A stretch of DNA of 64,000 bases from Desulfuromonadaceae bacterium (GTDB lineage: Bacteria; Desulfobacterota; Desulfuromonadia; Geobacterales; Pseudopelobacteraceae). Both the position numbers and the translations under genes were made by a program. Each line of letters begins with the position of its first letter. Position 1 is the first letter of the stretch. The notes beneath the pieces were generated by a model that had not been told where the DNA came from, did not search any database, and was given only the letters and a program-made list of their open reading frames with translations. Where the stretch lies: the NCBI GenBank assembly GCA_028683435.1, contig JAQUIG010000002.1, forward strand, positions 62,001 to 126,000. The letters run 5' to 3'. This document shows positions 14,975-41,292 of this stretch, piece after piece.

Positions 14975-16269
14975 AACGTGTAGCCATCAGCACTCTGGGG
15001 TGCAAAACCAATCAATTCGAATCGGCCGCCATGATTGAGCAGCTGAAAGCCGCCGGGTACCTCGTCGTTCCCTTCAGTGAACCATCTGACATTTATATCG
15101 TCAACTCCTGTACCGTGACTGCCCGAACAGACGCGGAAACCCGCCGACTGATCCGCCGCGCCCGCCGGCTCAATCCCGAATCACGCATCATTGCAACCGG
15201 CTGTTACGCCCAGGTATCACCCGGCGAGCTGGAGAAGATGCCCGAGCTCGATTGTGTTCTTGGCAACCAGGAGAAACAGAACATCTCGGTTCTTCTCGAA
15301 TCAGCCACAAACTCGGTTTCTGATATCGCTGCAGTCAGCTGGGCCGAGCCGCTTAAACTGACCAGTTTTGCCGAACATACCCGCGCCTTTCTTCAGATCC
15401 AGAACGGCTGCAACTCATTCTGCGCGTACTGTATCGTCCCCTATGCCCGTGGGCGCAGTCGCAGTGTCAGCCCGGATGACATCCTTCGGGGCATGCATGA
15501 TCTTGCCGACAACGGCTTCAAAGAGGTCGTGCTGACCGGCATCCATCTTGGCGCTTATGGCTTGGACCTCCCGTCACCGACATCACTGACAGCTCTCGTC
15601 AGAGAGATTGATGCCAAGTCCATTGTCCCCCGCCTGCGCATCGGTTCGGTGGAACCGAATGAAGTCAGCGAGGAACTGCTGGGCCTCATGTCCGCATCAA
15701 AGAGCATCTGCCCGCACCTGCACCTGCCATTGCAGAGCGGCAGCGATCCGGTATTGAAGCGCATGGGGAGGCCGTACACCTCAGGCGAATTCCGGGATTT
15801 GGTGACTCGGATTTCTGTTGCCATGCCGGACGCTTTTATCGGTGCCGACGTGATCGCCGGATTTCCGGGAGAGACCGAGGATGAGTTCCAGGAAACCGTA
15901 CGATTACTTGCAGATCTGCCATTCTCCGATCTGCATGTATTTCCCTATTCCAGCCGCTCAGGAACCAAAGCTGCCGGTATGCCGGGGCACCTGTCTCCCC
16001 AGACAGTTACCGTGCGGGCAGCGTATTTGCGAAACATTGCGAAACGGAAAAAAGAGATGTTTCTGCAGCGGTTTGTGGACAAGGATCTAAGGATTCTGGT
16101 TCAAAAATACGATGTTACATCCGGATTCTGCAGTGGATTGTCACGCAATTACATCTCTGTTTCGTTTCCCGGTGAAAAGGCGCTTGTAAACGAAGAAGTT
16201 TCCGTGCGGGTAACACGCTGTAACGGGGAGGTTTGTTCAGGAAATGCAACAGCCGTATCGGATAGGTGA
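14971..16269 (+). CDS. mtaB: tRNA t6A37 methylthiotransferase MtaB
   Basis: A radical-SAM enzyme that turns N6-threonylcarbamoyladenosine into its 2-methylthio form at tRNA position 37. The 432 residues show the N-terminal UPF0004 domain with three cluster cysteines (TLGCKTNQFES, VNSCTVT, ATGCYAQ), the radical-SAM motif GCNSFCAYCIVP (about 145-156), and a C-terminal TRAM-like region. The absence of the longer MiaB-type signature and the opening RVAISTLGCKTNQFE favour MtaB over MiaB or RimO. It is coupled to the MATE gene by an ATGA overlap. Confidence 0.93.
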   Translation: MKRVAISTLGCKTNQFESAAMIEQLKAAGYLVVPFSEPSDIYIVNSCTVTARTDAETRRLIRRARRLNPESRIIATGCYAQVSPGELEKMPELDCVLGNQEKQNISVLLESATNSVSDIAAVSWAEPLKLTSFAEHTRAFLQIQNGCNSFCAYCIVPYARGRSRSVSPDDILRGMHDLADNGFKEVVLTGIHLGAYGLDLPSPTSLTALVREIDAKSIVPRLRIGSVEPNEVSEELLGLMSASKSICPHLHLPLQSGSDPVLKRMGRPYTSGEFRDLVTRISVAMPDAFIGADVIAGFPGETEDEFQETVRLLADLPFSDLHVFPYSSRSGTKAAGMPGHLSPQTVTVRAAYLRNIAKRKKEMFLQRFVDKDLRILVQKYDVTSGFCSGLSRNYISVSFPGEKALVNEEVSVRVTRCNGEVCSGNATAVSDR

Positions 16270-35184: not shown

Positions 35185-35206
35185 AGATAGATTCTTCTTT
35201 CAGGGG

Positions 35207-35234
35207 AGATTAAACAATATCCAAACAATGTCAA
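35207..35234 (-). promoter_or_regulatory. Possible promoter of the rfbB operon
   Basis: On the minus strand TTGACA (35234-35229) and TAATCT (35212-35207) are 16 bp apart, about 23 bp before the rfbB start. The -10 is imperfect. Confidence 0.5.
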
Positions 35235-35260
35235 CCAGTATACCATAGGCATCGCTTGAA

Positions 35261-36106
35261 TCAAACCTCCAGCGAAGCGTCACGGGATTCTTCCAGCAGC
35301 GCCTCAAGCTCGACAATCTGGGTATCAGTTATATCCAGGACCTCTGCTTCCTTGGTGTTTATCAAGACAAGATCCGGCTCATGTTTCAGGCCAACCCCGA
35401 TCCGGTGGCAGGCCATGTTGACAAACCGTACGATCGCCAGCATCTTGTTGACAGTGTCCCACTCTTCGGCGTGGTGGTCACGGATCACGTCACAGTACAT
35501 CGCCGGAAAATTCCAATGCTGCATCATGCGATATCCCTGTTCGACATGCATCGCCTCGAATATTTCCAGAATCAGCTCATCATCGAAAAGCGAATTTATC
35601 ACCCCTGCGGCTACAAGTTTCTCAATTGATTTGAGCAGATAAAGCTTGCCGACGTCATGCAGAAGCGCAGCCAGATAGGTTTCATCGGCCACACCGCGCA
35701 TACCGCAGGAATGGGCCAACCAGCGGGCCCCGAGGGCACTGCTGTGGCTGTGCAGCCAAAGTTCTTTCATATAGTGGTCAAGCGCCGGATTGCTCGATGA
35801 GTGGGCCGATGCCTGAGAAGCGGCAATAACCAGGTTTATGACCTGCTGTGCTCCGAGACGGATAACCGCTTCTTTGATCGTAGCGACCTTGGTGCGTCCC
35901 ATATACATCGGAGAGTTGGCAATTTTCAGCATCTGGCTTGCAAGTGACATATCCTCATTTGCAACCTGCGAAACCTCATCAACGGTAAAATCGTAGTTTG
36001 AAAGCATTCTCTGCAGTTTTAACGCGACAGGGTGAAAGATCGGCAGCTCAATCGGCTGTGAAGCAAGTAACCTTCTTACCGTTTCCGGAATAGATGCTGA
36101 TGCCAT
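35261..36106 (-). CDS. HDOD-domain protein
   Basis: A 281-residue protein made almost wholly of an HDOD domain, a degenerate HD-type fold used in signalling. The domain runs from about residue 20 to 225: LPIFHPVALKLQRMLSN, the SLASQMLKIANSP helix, LLHDVGKLYLL and MHVEQGYRMMQHW. HDOD proteins usually lack phosphodiesterase activity and often act with c-di-GMP or chemotaxis systems. ATG 36106 has AAGGAG seven bases upstream. It is the last gene of the operon that starts with the M50 protease. Confidence 0.92.
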   Translation of the reverse strand: MASASIPETVRRLLASQPIELPIFHPVALKLQRMLSNYDFTVDEVSQVANEDMSLASQMLKIANSPMYMGRTKVATIKEAVIRLGAQQVINLVIAASQASAHSSSNPALDHYMKELWLHSHSSALGARWLAHSCGMRGVADETYLAALLHDVGKLYLLKSIEKLVAAGVINSLFDDELILEIFEAMHVEQGYRMMQHWNFPAMYCDVIRDHHAEEWDTVNKMLAIVRFVNMACHRIGVGLKHEPDLVLINTKEAEVLDITDTQIVELEALLEESRDASLEV

Positions 36107-36136
36107 GACAGGTCTCCTTACCACGAATTCTGGTTC

Positions 36137-37000
36137 TTACTCGTGACGCTCCAGCAGCAGGCGTCCTTCCAGATCATCTATGAACTGCCGGGCGGAACGA
36201 CCGCTCCTGCGGGCAGTCATCCTGGCCCATTTAAGGGCCTTGTCGCACAGTTCTTCGTCAGAGACAGAAAGCTTTCTCGTCGCAGCATAACGGCGAATAA
36301 TAGAGAGATACTCTTCTTGATCGAATTCATAAAAACCGAGAGACAGGCCGAAGCGGTCAGACAGTGCCAACTTTTCACCAACCGCCTCTTCAGGGTGAAT
36401 TTCAGAATCAGAGCTGTTATCCGACAATCGTTCCGGCATAAGGTGGCGGCGGTTAGATGTCGCATATATGAGTATATTGGCGGGGCGCTCTTCAATATCG
36501 CCATCGAGCAGTGTTTTTAACGCTCTGAAATCACCCTCCCCTTCATCAAAGGAGAGATCGTCGCAGAAAAGAATGAAACGAAAGGGGATATCTCGCAGCT
36601 GTCCGATAATCTGGGGCAGCGACAAGATATCCCAGCGTTTCAGCTCCACAATCCGCAGCCCATCTGGAGCAAACTGCTTCAGGAGACCTTTAACCAGCGA
36701 AGATTTACCACAGCCGCGTTCTCCCCAGAGCAGGACATTATTTGCCGGAAGATGTGCGACAAACTGCCGTGTGTTGCGGAGCACCTCATCCCGGATATCA
36801 TCAATGCCGACAAGTTCGTTCAGATCAAACAGATGCGGATGCGTCACCGCAACCAACCGGCCTGCCTCCCCTACCCGCTCCCAGCGAAACGCGATATTTG
36901 CGTTTAAGTCAATTGGCAAATCCGGGGCAGGCACCAGACGGTCGACCAAGGTGGTGATTTTATCCAGCAGTATTTCAAGTTTATCGGTGTAGTTATTCAT
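36137..37000 (-). CDS. DUF815-family AAA+ ATPase
   Basis: A 287-residue P-loop ATPase of the DUF815 group, whose function is not established. It has Walker A WGERGCGKSSLVKGLL (about 93-108), Walker B FILFCDDLSFDEGEGDF, a sensor-1-like YATSNRRHLMPE and a C-terminal helical lid ending in SARQFIDDL. The start could be ATG 37000 or TTG 37006; AAAGGA lies 11 or 5 bases before them. It lies between two uncharacterised genes and an HDOD gene. A regulatory or chaperone-like role is plausible, but nothing in the sequence fixes it. Confidence 0.87.
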   Translation of the reverse strand: MNNYTDKLEILLDKITTLVDRLVPAPDLPIDLNANIAFRWERVGEAGRLVAVTHPHLFDLNELVGIDDIRDEVLRNTRQFVAHLPANNVLLWGERGCGKSSLVKGLLKQFAPDGLRIVELKRWDILSLPQIIGQLRDIPFRFILFCDDLSFDEGEGDFRALKTLLDGDIEERPANILIYATSNRRHLMPERLSDNSSDSEIHPEEAVGEKLALSDRFGLSLGFYEFDQEEYLSIIRRYAATRKLSVSDEELCDKALKWARMTARRSGRSARQFIDDLEGRLLLERHE

Positions 37001-37015
37001 GTGCAACAGGGTCCT

Positions 37016-37417
37016 TTAGCAGCCACATCCACAGTTATGGCAAACTTTCCTGAATTCATCTGATGGCGCAACAGTTTCCGGTGCAAACGCCACACGCCTG
37101 ACAGCTGTGCTGATATCTCCCATAATATCAAGGCGCATGCTTTTCCCGATAATATGACCAACGCACTGATTGCTATGACCATCCTCCAGGGAGGATATTT
37201 TAACAGCATTCAACATATCGGCATAACTTGTAACCTCGATAGTGGCATCCCGATTGCGCATGACGGTCAAGACTACTCCCAACCGCTTCATCTCAATAAT
37301 CAATCCGTTGAGGAAATCCAGAAACGGCAGACCATCGACATCAACATACCAATCATTTCTGATATGTTTCTGATTGAGAATTGTGATGACCATCTGTTTT
37401 GCTTTTTTATTCGCCAT
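37016..37417 (-). CDS. Uncharacterised protein with C-terminal CHNCGCGC tail
   Basis: A 133-residue protein I do not recognise. The first 70 residues are mixed (MANKKAKQMVITILNQK, then WYVDVDGLPFLDFLNGLI) and look globular. The last eight residues, CHNCGCGC, place four cysteines and a histidine at the extreme C-terminus, as in metal-binding or metal-delivery tails. The ATG at 37417 shares a base with the upstream gene's stop (TGATG). The stop TAA overlaps the ribosome binding site of the DUF815 gene, so the three genes look translationally linked. Confidence 0.82.
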   Translation of the reverse strand: MANKKAKQMVITILNQKHIRNDWYVDVDGLPFLDFLNGLIIEMKRLGVVLTVMRNRDATIEVTSYADMLNAVKISSLEDGHSNQCVGHIIGKSMRLDIMGDISTAVRRVAFAPETVAPSDEFRKVCHNCGCGC

Positions 37418-37914
37418 CACAGTACAGCCGGGCACTGGACGTCCCACTCGGCAAAGCCTTCGCCCGTAAGAGTCAGAAAAGAATCTATCCGCTGACGGTA
37501 AAATTCAAGCTGGCCCGCCTCTTTTGCCAGAAAAGAGAGCTCTTCGGCAGAAATCAGATGCTTACTATGCAGATATCGATACAGCGCAGTGATTGCCGTC
37601 AAATGGCGCTCCAGCATTACCAGCTCGGGATCAAGCGTATGAGTGATGAACCAGGAAGCGGCAAAAATGGTGATTATTCCTGGCTGGGGACGGGCAATAT
37701 TTTGGCGGCCAAAATCAATCAGATAATCACGCAGATAAAGGTCAGCACTGAACGCCAGTTCGGAAGCCTGTGCAGCGGCCATTCCCTCCACCTGAAGGGA
37801 GAGATAGAACAGTTTCAGGATCTGCTGGCAACGCTCATCAACCAGCAACTCCTCGTCAATGGTATCAAAGTCGAAGTCGTCATGCTCAAATTCAATTTCA
37901 GGGCTCTGCGGCAT
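37417..37914 (-). CDS. Uncharacterised acidic helical protein
   Basis: A 165-residue protein with no family I can name. The N-terminus is very acidic (PEIEFEHDDFDFDTIDEELLVDE is summarised by 12 D/E in about 23 residues), and the rest appears mostly alpha-helical (LKLFYLSLQVEGMAAAQAS, LTAITALYRYLHSKHL). No signal peptide or metal motif is visible. It lies 17 bp after the M29 aminopeptidase and shares a base with the next gene, so it belongs to the same operon. Position suggests a partner of the cysteine-tailed protein. Confidence 0.82.
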   Translation of the reverse strand: MPQSPEIEFEHDDFDFDTIDEELLVDERCQQILKLFYLSLQVEGMAAAQASELAFSADLYLRDYLIDFGRQNIARPQPGIITIFAASWFITHTLDPELVMLERHLTAITALYRYLHSKHLISAEELSFLAKEAGQLEFYRQRIDSFLTLTGEGFAEWDVQCPAVL

Positions 37915-37931
37915 AATGTTAATAGTCTCTC

Positions 37932-39032
37932 TTAGTCTGGATTAAGTTCAAGCAAATCTTTATGGACAAAGCGGCCGTTTTTCTGGATCAGCACATCGTC
38001 AAACCAGATCTCTCCATCAGAAAGGATTTTCACCAGATCCCAGTGTACGGAGGAACGGTTGCCGTTGTCACACTCGTCGTACGCCTGTCCGGGGGTGAGA
38101 TGAATTGAACCGAAAATCTTTTCATCAAACAGAATATTGCGCATCGGCTGACGGATCCCGGGATTGACACCGATTGCAAACTCTCCAATGTAGCGGGCAC
38201 CTTCATCTGCATCCAGAATTTTGTTGAGGGGCTTGGTCATACCCCCTTCAGCGGTCGCCTTGACTATTTTACCGTCAGCAAACTCGAAACGGACACCGTT
38301 GTATTCCTTGCCTTGATAAATACTCGGACAGTTATAGCCGATATGCCCCTGGACTGAGTTTTTAACCGGGGCGGTGAACACTTCACCGTCCGGCATATTG
38401 AGACGGCCATCACATTTGACGCCGGGCAGGCCGTCGATACTGAAACTGATGTCAGTATCGGGTGCTGCGATTCTGACCTTTCTGGTTCGGTCCATCAGTT
38501 TTTTAAGCTTTTCCTGTTTCTTTGACTCGGCTTTCCAGTCAATACAGCAGGCGGAAAAGAGGTAATCCTCATATTCATCCAGACTCATTCTGGCTTCCTG
38601 GGCTGAGGCATGAGTCGGGTAGCGGGTCACACACCAGCGGGTGTGTTTAACACGCTGATCGACCAGTGGCCTGGTCAGCTTTGAATATGCGACAACCGCA
38701 TCCTGGCGGGCATTAGCCATGACCATTGAATTGTTAGCGGCGGAAATACCGATATAGACCGTTACGCTCTTGTAGAAATCGAGCTTATGCTGCGGGAAGT
38801 AATCAAGCTGGAGTTTATTGGCACTGTTGTAGAAACAGCGATCAATTTCCGGCACTGAAAAATTGTATTCTACGTACTTTGCACCACGAGTGAGGCAAAG
38901 TGCATACAGCTCCTTCACCAGCGGCAACGCCTCAAGCCCGGCAGCATTGATAAGTACGACATCTCCCTTTTTCACCCTGGTCGAGTAATCCACCAGTATC
39001 TCTGCAAGCCGCCGAATTCTGGGATCATTCAT
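37932..39032 (-). CDS. M29-family aminopeptidase
   Basis: A 366-residue metallopeptidase of the AmpS/AmpT group (M29). The C-terminal half carries the likely metal ligands in order: E in DGEVFTAP, E in IGEFAIGVNP, H in GSIHL and H/D in SSVHWDLV. The N-terminal domain (RRLAEILVDYSTRVKKGD, INAAGLEALPLVKEL) is typical of the family. These enzymes remove N-terminal residues in the cytoplasm. It lies 26 bp after an M50 protease gene. Confidence 0.92.
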   Translation of the reverse strand: MNDPRIRRLAEILVDYSTRVKKGDVVLINAAGLEALPLVKELYALCLTRGAKYVEYNFSVPEIDRCFYNSANKLQLDYFPQHKLDFYKSVTVYIGISAANNSMVMANARQDAVVAYSKLTRPLVDQRVKHTRWCVTRYPTHASAQEARMSLDEYEDYLFSACCIDWKAESKKQEKLKKLMDRTRKVRIAAPDTDISFSIDGLPGVKCDGRLNMPDGEVFTAPVKNSVQGHIGYNCPSIYQGKEYNGVRFEFADGKIVKATAEGGMTKPLNKILDADEGARYIGEFAIGVNPGIRQPMRNILFDEKIFGSIHLTPGQAYDECDNGNRSSVHWDLVKILSDGEIWFDDVLIQKNGRFVHKDLLELNPD

Positions 39033-39058
39033 TCAGTACACTCCAAGTATAGCCGGAT

Positions 39059-39739
39059 TTAATGCATCATCAGCCTTGTAACGCCGAGGACAAGACCGCT
39101 CTGCGGACCGGCCAGCAGCTGAACACCAACTCCGAGGACCGGGGAAATAATGTACGAGAACATGTTGGTAAAAAATACCAGCGCGATGATGATTATCATC
39201 CCGTACGGCTCAATCCGCGACAATAGCGCCGCCTGTCGGTAGGGGAGCAGCCCTGACAACACACGACCACCATCAAGAGGGGGGACCGGTATCATGTTGA
39301 AAATTGCCAGCAACAGGTTGATGTAGACCGAAAATGCCAGCATCAGGACCAAAGGCTCAACCAGCATGGCAAGCGGTGAACCGGGAACGGCGGGATTACC
39401 ATAGGCCACCAGACCACGGAGCAATAACGCTGACACCGTTGCGAGCAAGAGGTTGGTAACCGGACCGGCGACAGCCACCCAGATCATATCCCGTTTGGGA
39501 TTACGAAGATTTTCAAACACCACCGGCACCGGTTTTGCCCAACCGATACCGATAAAGAAAATCATCAACGTACCTACGATATCAATATGCTTCAGAGGAT
39601 TGAGCGTCAATCGCCCCAGCATCCGTGCTGTCGGATCACCAAAACGCCAGGCGACATAGCCATGGGAAACTTCGTGACAAACAATTGCCAGCATACCCGG
39701 CACAAGCATTACTGAAAGCTTGAAAAAGAAACTTTCCAT
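39059..39739 (-). CDS. Site-2 protease family protein (M50)
   Basis: A 226-residue intramembrane metalloprotease with several hydrophobic helices. The zinc site HEVSHGYVAWRFGD (about 21-34) lies in the first membrane region, and the third ligand is in VPPLDGGRV (about 150-158). This is the short form without a PDZ domain, like the rhomboid-independent SpoIVFB-related group widespread in bacteria. ATG 39739 has AAAGGA seven bases upstream; the frame extends to 39808 without support. A promoter just upstream makes it the first gene of a six-gene operon. The substrate is unknown. Confidence 0.9.
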   Translation of the reverse strand: MESFFFKLSVMLVPGMLAIVCHEVSHGYVAWRFGDPTARMLGRLTLNPLKHIDIVGTLMIFFIGIGWAKPVPVVFENLRNPKRDMIWVAVAGPVTNLLLATVSALLLRGLVAYGNPAVPGSPLAMLVEPLVLMLAFSVYINLLLAIFNMIPVPPLDGGRVLSGLLPYRQAALLSRIEPYGMIIIIALVFFTNMFSYIISPVLGVGVQLLAGPQSGLVLGVTRLMMH

Positions 39740-39773
39740 CTGAGAGTCCTTTGAACTGAATAAATCTGCATCT

Positions 39774-39802
39774 TTTCTAGCAGAGTGACCCGGTAAAGTC
39801 AA
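39774..39802 (-). promoter_or_regulatory. Promoter of the M50-to-HDOD operon
   Basis: On the minus strand TTGACT (39802-39797) and TAGAAA (39779-39774) are 17 bp apart, 34 bp before the M50 start. It lies after the glnA terminator, so the operon seems independent of glnBA. Confidence 0.65.
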
Positions 39803-39826
39803 TTGCAAGGCAATCTATGAAACGCC

Positions 39827-39852
39827 AAAAAGGCGGGATCGCTCCCGCCTTT
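39827..39852 (-). terminator. Terminator after glnA
   Basis: On the minus strand AAAGGCGGGA pairs perfectly with TCCCGCCTTT around a four-base loop and is followed by T residues. It closes the glnB-glnA unit. Confidence 0.92.
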
Positions 39853-39879
39853 CATGGATTTATGCAGTTTGGGTATTAA

Positions 39880-41292
39880 TTAAATATCGTAGTACAGTTC
39901 AAACTCAAGTGGCACGGGACGCATGCGGATAGGATTTACTTCTGCCTCGGTTTTGTACTCAATCCACTTCTCGATAACATCGGGAGTAAATACATCACCC
40001 TTCAGAAGGAACTCATGGTCTTCCTTAAGACATTTCAGAGCGTCTTCAAGAGTACCCGGTGCTGACGGAATATCCTTTAACTCCTCAGGAGAAAGACCGT
40101 AAATATCCTTGTCCAGAGGCTGGCCCGGATCAATTTTGTTTTCGATACCATCCAGGCCGGCCATCAGCATGGCGGCAAACGCCAGGTAACCATTGCATGA
40201 TGGATCGGGGGTACGATATTCTACACGCTTTGCCTTCGGATTAGTCGACATCATTGGAATACGGAGTGAAGCAGAGCGATTACGGCTTGAGTAAGCCATA
40301 TTAACCGGAGCCTCGAAGCCGGGGACTAATCGTTTGTACGAGTTGGTAGTCGGATTGGTAATGGCACAGAGGGCCCTGGCGTGCTTGATGATCCCACCGA
40401 TGTACCAGAGTGCCATCTGGGAAAGTCCGCCGTACTTATCACCGGCAAAAAGGTTCTGTCCATCCCTCCATATCGACATGTGGCAGTGCATCCCCGAACC
40501 GTTGTCGCCGTAGAGCGGCTTGGGCATAAAGGTTGCCGATTTGCCGTTCCGGTTGGCTACGTTCTTGATGACATATTTGAACCATTGCAGCTGGTCAGCC
40601 ATGTCAACCAGCGAGGAGAAACGCATATCTATTTCGGCCTGACCACCGGTGGCAACTTCGTGATGCTGGCACTCCACACGTATACCGACACTTTGAAGCA
40701 CTTCGACCATTTCGTTACGCAGGTCATTCTGAGAATCAACTGGTGAACAGGGGAAGTACCCCTCTTTGTGACGAGGTTTGTAGCCAAGATTCGGGAACTC
40801 CTCGCGGCCGCTATTCCAGGCGCCTTCAGAGGAATCAACCGTGTAGAACGACTGATTTGCCGTCGAAGAAAACCGGACATCGTCGAATATAAAAAATTCA
40901 GCTTCCGGGCCAAAGAAAGCGGTATCGCCGATGCCCGTTGACTTCAGGTACATTTCCGCTTTTTTGGCGATATTACGCGGATCTCTGGTGTAATCTTCCT
41001 TGGTAATCGGGTCGAAGATGTCGCAAATGATCGACATGGTCGGAACCTTGACAAAGGGATCTATTTTGGCCGTGGTGGGATCAGGAAGCAGGATCATGTC
41101 AGAAGCGTGGATAGGCTGCCAGCCACGAATTGAAGAGCCGTCAAAGCCTTGTCCCTCTTCAAAGGTATCCTCACTAAACTCGGTTATTGGCACTGAAAGA
41201 TGCTGCCAGGTACCAATAAAATCCATAAATTTGTAATCAACCATCTTCACACAATTCTCTTTAGCAAACTCAAGTACCTGCTTCGGTGTCAT
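39880..41292 (-). CDS. glnA: Glutamine synthetase, type I
   Basis: Makes glutamine from glutamate, ammonia and ATP; the main ammonium-assimilation enzyme. The 470-residue GlnA is full length, with [17 protein letters not shown], the catalytic [19 protein letters not shown], the ATP-site [14 protein letters not shown] and NRSASLRIP. The adenylylation tyrosine is present in [10 protein letters not shown], so covalent control is possible. It follows glnB by 29 bp, and its terminator is clear. Control is probably by NtrC through the -24/-12 promoter in front of glnB. Confidence 0.98.

Follow-up and report, generated by a model that had tools for sequence, protein, structure and literature searches.

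Six genes lie in one direction on the minus strand of a 64,000 nucleotide stretch of DNA from a Desulfuromonadaceae bacterium (GCA_028683435.1, contig JAQUIG010000002.1, positions 62,001–126,000 of the forward strand). This whole stretch is termed the window. The block occupies positions 35,261–39,802 of the window, with the genes in the order M50, M29, p165, p133, DUF815 and HDOD. A preliminary description had suggested that the six products could form one regulatory pathway of proteolysis. The question raised by the locus is whether such a pathway exists, or whether a smaller association is embedded among genes that are ordinary in function.

The six-gene block and its transcription signals

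The features of the block are as follows.

39815..39880, minus strand: hairpin of the glnA terminator, which precedes the block (−22 kcal/mol, z −3.74)
39778..39806, minus strand: probable sigma-70-type promoter TTGACT-N17-TAGAAA before M50 (conserved in the genus alignment)
39059..39739, minus strand: M50-type site-2 metalloprotease (Pfam PF02163, 5e-15)
37932..39032, minus strand: M29 aminopeptidase (Pfam PF02073, 4e-64)
37417..37914, minus strand: p165, acidic stand-alone relative of the tyrosine-recombinase core-binding domain (structure match and profile alignment)
37016..37417, minus strand: p133, undescribed family, possibly thioredoxin-like (invariant CxGH and C-terminal CHNCGCGC)
36137..37000, minus strand: DUF815A AAA+ ATPase (Pfam PF05673, 4e-103)
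35261..36106, minus strand: HDOD-domain protein, last block gene in the window family (Pfam PF08668, 2e-43)

The intergenic gaps from M50 to HDOD, as read from the sequence, are 26, 17, −1, 15 and 30 bp, which agrees with the original observation of six co-directional genes separated by about 30 bp or less. The p165 and p133 genes have one base in common at their junction (TGATG). The promoter and the glnA terminator that had been placed in front of the block were both recovered. The two hexamers and the spacing of TTGACT-N17-TAGAAA are kept in most of the genus members aligned, and a terminator-type hairpin after glnA is also present in several relatives. A generic promoter scan gave no signal above chance and missed the conserved site.

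No terminator was found 3′ of HDOD, and the rfb genes start 77 bp further on. The promoter scan displays an extended −10-like site (TGGTATACT) at positions 35185–35264, ahead of rfbB, and the rfb operon may therefore have its own promoter. In one relative (G010, locus L106, positions 15003–15888) the HDOD reading frame of the block is interrupted and falls into two frames, owing either to a frameshift or to an assembly error.

Short gaps recur in the named relatives. The M50–M29 gap is 100 nt or less in 31 of 31 cases and the M29–p165 gap in 42 of 43; gaps are likewise short between p165 and p133 (46 of 48) and between p133 and DUF815 (20 of 20). Since the gene order with its short gaps is found in approximately 30 named relatives, the arrangement is not due to chance. 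On sequence evidence the six genes are a real but composite bacterial operon, i.e. ordinary protease genes together with two undescribed proteins.

M50, M29 and HDOD are clear members of their families. The M50 sequence passes the family score and displays the motifs HEVSH (HExxH) and NMIPVPPLDG (NxxPxPPLDG). The M29 sequence also passes its family score and has the motifs GEVF, GEFAIG, GSIHL and HWD, to which we presume the metal ligands belong. HDOD scores 148 bits against a family cut-off of 22.9.

The p165 and p133 proteins

Searches of the curated families of Pfam and NCBIfam gave no credible match to p165. One Pfam match, to ABC_membrane_2 (E 0.008), is attributed to chance; the fold gives it no support. 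The AlphaFold2 model (61 orthologues, pLDDT 92.5) is all helical. Its closest structural matches by VIA-align are 3nrw (Z 10.4, 103 residues, 2.2 Å) and XerA (5hxy, Z 10.3), followed by SroF, an integron integrase and Cre. Recombinases and integrase-like proteins, among them the regulator MrpR, fill the top 26 rows of the list, whereas unrelated proteins score 5.2 or less. Helical bundles may reach high Z values by chance with this tool, and therefore an independent profile comparison was made. Alignment of p165 with XerC/XerD of relatives by hhalign gave a probability of 81.6% (P 1.1e-5), and the alignment falls within the core-binding domain in the right register. Among the controls, 26 other families gave no more than 0.7% and 60 column shuffles no more than 2.8%. 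Taken together, the modelled fold and the profile match with its clean controls indicate that p165 is a homologue of the tyrosine-recombinase core-binding domain.

The catalytic domain (R-K-H-R-H/W-Y) is absent from p165 and from its 73 orthologues, which are 158–181 aa long and stop after the core-binding part; R62, D63, W88, P96, R142 and W157 of p165 are among the conserved positions. For this reason p165 is not classed as a tyrosine recombinase. The family has a net charge of about −15, and the protein in the window has a charge of −17 and a pI of 4.4. The core-binding part taken separately has a net charge of −5, compared with +3 in Xer domains. The overall acidity argues against an Xer-like binding of DNA. 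With the catalytic domain missing and the acidity strong, p165 probably acts as the partner of another protein and not by binding DNA.

Thus p165 has in common with the tyrosine recombinases (XerA/XerC/XerD, Cre and the integron integrase) a core-binding, SAM-like fold over approximately 100 residues. Unlike these it is a stand-alone protein that is acidic, lacks the catalytic domain and carries extra segments at both the N- and C-terminal ends, and its neighbours are housekeeping genes and not a mobile element. Searches of PHROGs and PADLOC gave nothing that points to a phage or defence role, and sequence searches of the PDB with p165, p133 and DUF815 found no relatives other than general AAA+ proteins.

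A long open frame around p165 in one genome (G212) was considered as a possible fusion; one frame was read, it contains no partner, and it is merely an open frame of high-GC DNA. An 831-aa gene beside p165 in f50, suspected to be Lon, proved to be a multihaem cytochrome.

The second small protein, p133, has no match in Pfam, NCBIfam or PHROGs and no family model. Of the two proteins reported as unknown in the preliminary description, p165 has thus been placed by profile with the XerC/XerD core-binding domain and p133 still stands without a family. The p133 family is found in the Desulfuromonadia and in one further lineage (f32). C85xGH88 and the C-terminal CHNCGCGC are invariant in the members seen, including those from other classes, and the literature searched holds nothing on the function of the CHNCGCGC tail. 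The AlphaFold2 model has a pLDDT of 84, which is low in the tail. Its fold matches L51/CI-B8, SelW and thioredoxin weakly (best Z 5.9), and Foldseek gave no match under E 0.09. The order of strands and helices is similar to that of L51/CI-B8 and SelW-type thioredoxin-like domains (Z 5–6, a weak match). However p133 differs from these in having the invariant C-terminal CHNCGCGC and no N-terminal CxxC, the sequence after the first strand being QKHIRNDW. The model is that of a protein that is perhaps thioredoxin-like. The five fixed cysteines and two histidines suggest metal or redox chemistry.

Elsewhere p133 belongs to a cassette that also encodes a putative outer-membrane barrel, ABC_sub_bind, a receiver domain (REC), a phosphoesterase and SppA. 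(The names Opp, barrel, phosphoesterase and SppA used here are labels assigned by reading the sequences.) In sister families the cassette (L080–L090) consists of an ABC ATPase, a multihaem cytochrome, a 700-aa putative barrel without a Pfam match, ABC_sub_bind, a short receiver domain, p133, the phosphoesterase and SppA; it may serve electron transfer or a metal-related export. In another genome (G064) a long open frame around p133 looked like a possible fusion.

The DUF815 ATPase and its neighbours

The DUF815A protein of the window matches PF05673 with 344 bits (cut-off 23.8) over profile positions 3–248 of 249. Its ATPase motifs are intact, i.e. Walker A and B, sensor 1 and the arginine residues (GERGCGKS, FILFCDD, TSN, DRFG, RSGR). 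In the literature searched, no description of a function for DUF815 or COG2607 was found; the DUF815 passages are mere mentions, and papers that name COG2607 do so once each. Within that literature, and with no credible curated family for p165 or p133, the earlier statement that the middle three genes are without an established role is upheld.

In a sample of 297 genomes from the phylum, p165 was found in 24 and DUF815 in 31. DUF815 is present in 19 of the 24 genomes with p165 and in 12 of the 273 without it (Fisher 1.1e-17). At the family level DUF815 occurs in seven of eight families with p165 and in three of about 88 others (about 8e-8, with an approximate denominator); both tests ignore relatedness within families. 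DUF815 was not detected in five p165-bearing genomes of the sample. DUF815 is found without p165 in f14, f18 and f32 and in other phyla.

In many Geobacterales p165 and DUF815A are adjacent or one gene apart. Geobacteraceae and Geotalea show the order p165-(M48)-DUF815A, and the window family shows p165-(p133)-DUF815A. In a locus of another class (L217), p165, an SNase, an M48 metallopeptidase with TPR and DUF815 are all on one strand. Outside the Geobacterales most p165 genes are not beside DUF815, and p165 is solitary in several classes.

Independently of p165, the five loci (L217, L263, L265, L267 and L268) from f27 and f90, two families of other classes of the phylum, each have an M48+TPR metallopeptidase gene immediately upstream of DUF815, and in both f50 loci one lies near DUF815. 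A related M48 peptidase lies beside the DUF815 paralogue in a further genome (G029). An M48 metallopeptidase at DUF815 is a recurrent feature of at least three lineages. The DUF815 proteins of f27, f50 and f90 form a separate deep branch of the tree, and thus the M48 association extends beyond the DUF815A clade. A Sinorhizobium homologue of DUF815 adjoins yajC-secDF and a LysM-domain gene, whereas the DUF815 of the window is paired with p165. Judged by gene content, the theme common to the DUF815 neighbourhoods is cell envelope, export and proteolysis.

The preliminary description had also envisaged an ATPase with an adaptor-like pair near proteases. One part of this holds, in that p165 and DUF815 co-occur and are repeated neighbours, often with M48 nearby; p133 would be at most a possible member. 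The arrangement is like that of AAA+ proteases with adaptors (ClpXP, FtsH) by analogy only, since genes for an ATPase, a small acidic partner and a metallopeptidase stand side by side. In contrast to ClpXP and FtsH, the peptidase is neither fused nor chambered and the ATPase is of a separate AAA+ lineage; here the association is one of gene neighbourhood.

DUF815 homologues are also common in records of Acinetobacter plasmids, where most cover about 70% of the query and the neighbourhoods are partly unannotated. According to one paper (PMC8942029), a prophage carries a DUF815 gene beside oxa23 and ISAba1, and this DUF815 may therefore be a passenger of the resistance element.

History of the block and possible roles

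The order of the block genes among relatives was established from searches of 39 related genomes, from fetched regions and from 80 named loci. In the genus of the window the order is M50-M29-p165-p133-[DUF815A]-HDOD, with the rfb genes usually next, and the HDOD orthologue is inside the block in nearly all members. Sister genera, among them Oryzomonas and Pelotalea, show M29-p165-p133-DUF815A-HDOD. Trichlorobacter has OppB-OppC-p165-methyltransferase-HDOD, and Geobacteraceae and Geotalea have OppA-OppB-OppC-p165-(M48)-DUF815A. Block members are separate in nearly every sister family. There both proteases have conserved housekeeping neighbours, namely trpS-scpA-scpB in the case of M50, whereas M29 is grouped with pnp, an M16 peptidase, dut and sua5. 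The closest relative (G013) is missing p133. About half of the relatives have no DUF815A in the block, and in six genomes the gene is located elsewhere. On the p165+M29 tree, parsimony requires 10 state changes of DUF815A, of which three are forced by well-supported branches alone. Because M50, M29 and p133 have separate neighbourhoods, G013 is without p133 and DUF815A is unstable, the six genes are not a functional unit inherited together. The neighbourhood comparison, the test named with the preliminary description, thus largely refutes the six-gene pathway and leaves the link between p165 and DUF815 in place.

Our preferred explanation, held tentatively and at somewhat less than even chances, is that DUF815 and p165 work as a pair of ATPase and partner, either in proteolysis at the envelope or in the handling of peptides, and that passenger genes have joined this pair in the window clade. 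In this scheme p165 would no longer act on DNA as Xer does and would instead be a protein partner or adaptor that docks on the ring of the DUF815 ATPase. The pair may then remodel envelope proteins or peptides using ATP and pass substrates to membrane and cytoplasmic peptidases, i.e. M48 in most lineages and the nearby M50 and M29 in the window lineage. In the sister families peptide uptake would proceed via Opp. Nearly all of the genomes that have lost DUF815A contain a second DUF815 paralogue, which p165 may use in its place. M50, M29, HDOD and p133 would be co-expressed passengers or have loosely coupled functions.

For the operon as a whole, simple drift is about as likely as this pair. 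By drift, housekeeping genes came to lie behind one promoter and have expression in common without a common mechanism, p165, p133 and DUF815 acting elsewhere. The conserved housekeeping neighbours of M50 and M29 in sister families agree with this, as do the separate cassette of p133, the repeated gain, loss or movement of DUF815A and the solitary p165 genes of several classes. However drift alone would not yield the co-occurrence of p165 and DUF815 across the phylum, their adjacency in two classes or the recurring M48.

Far less probable is a role for p165 as a recombinase-derived DNA-binding regulator that controls this operon or others. The precedent is MrpR, the repressor of prophage SPbeta, in which a recombinase fold without recombination has been turned into a regulator (PMC10516654); p165 has the core-binding fold, and MrpR is among its structural matches. 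MrpR has both domains and binds DNA (PMC10516654), whereas p165 is the first domain alone, and the charge of the p165 family (about −15, against about +3 in the Xer core-binding domain) speaks against such a function.

The pathway of all six products is a shade more doubtful again: the peptidase theme favours it, as does a tight conserved operon that in the genus has a single promoter, yet its members are separated in nearly every sister family, with p133 missing from the closest relative and DUF815 from about half. Very improbable is a role for p165 as an acidic decoy or mimic of DNA, bound to the cell's own Xer recombinases or to other DNA-binding proteins. This would fit an acidic protein with the fold by which recombinases make contact with DNA and with one another, but it leaves the linkage to DUF815 and M48 unexplained.

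Returning to the pair of p165 and DUF815, a wider proposal can be made, although in its full form it is rather unlikely. p165 would found a family of acidic core-binding domains that lack the catalytic half and serve as adaptors for DUF815. With M48 membrane metallopeptidases they would constitute an undescribed ATP-driven system of envelope proteolysis in the Desulfuromonadia as well as in further classes of the phylum.

The new element of the block, as read from its sequences, is p165, which varies a known domain and is associated with DUF815 in a way not described before. p133 represents a further undescribed family; its invariant cysteine tail suggests a role in metal binding or redox chemistry in these bacteria. 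Reuse of a recombinase domain as an acidic, non-catalytic partner would, if true, be an unusual evolutionary step. DUF815 ATPases span many phyla, and the p165 partner together with the recurrent M48 neighbour gives a testable handle on their function.
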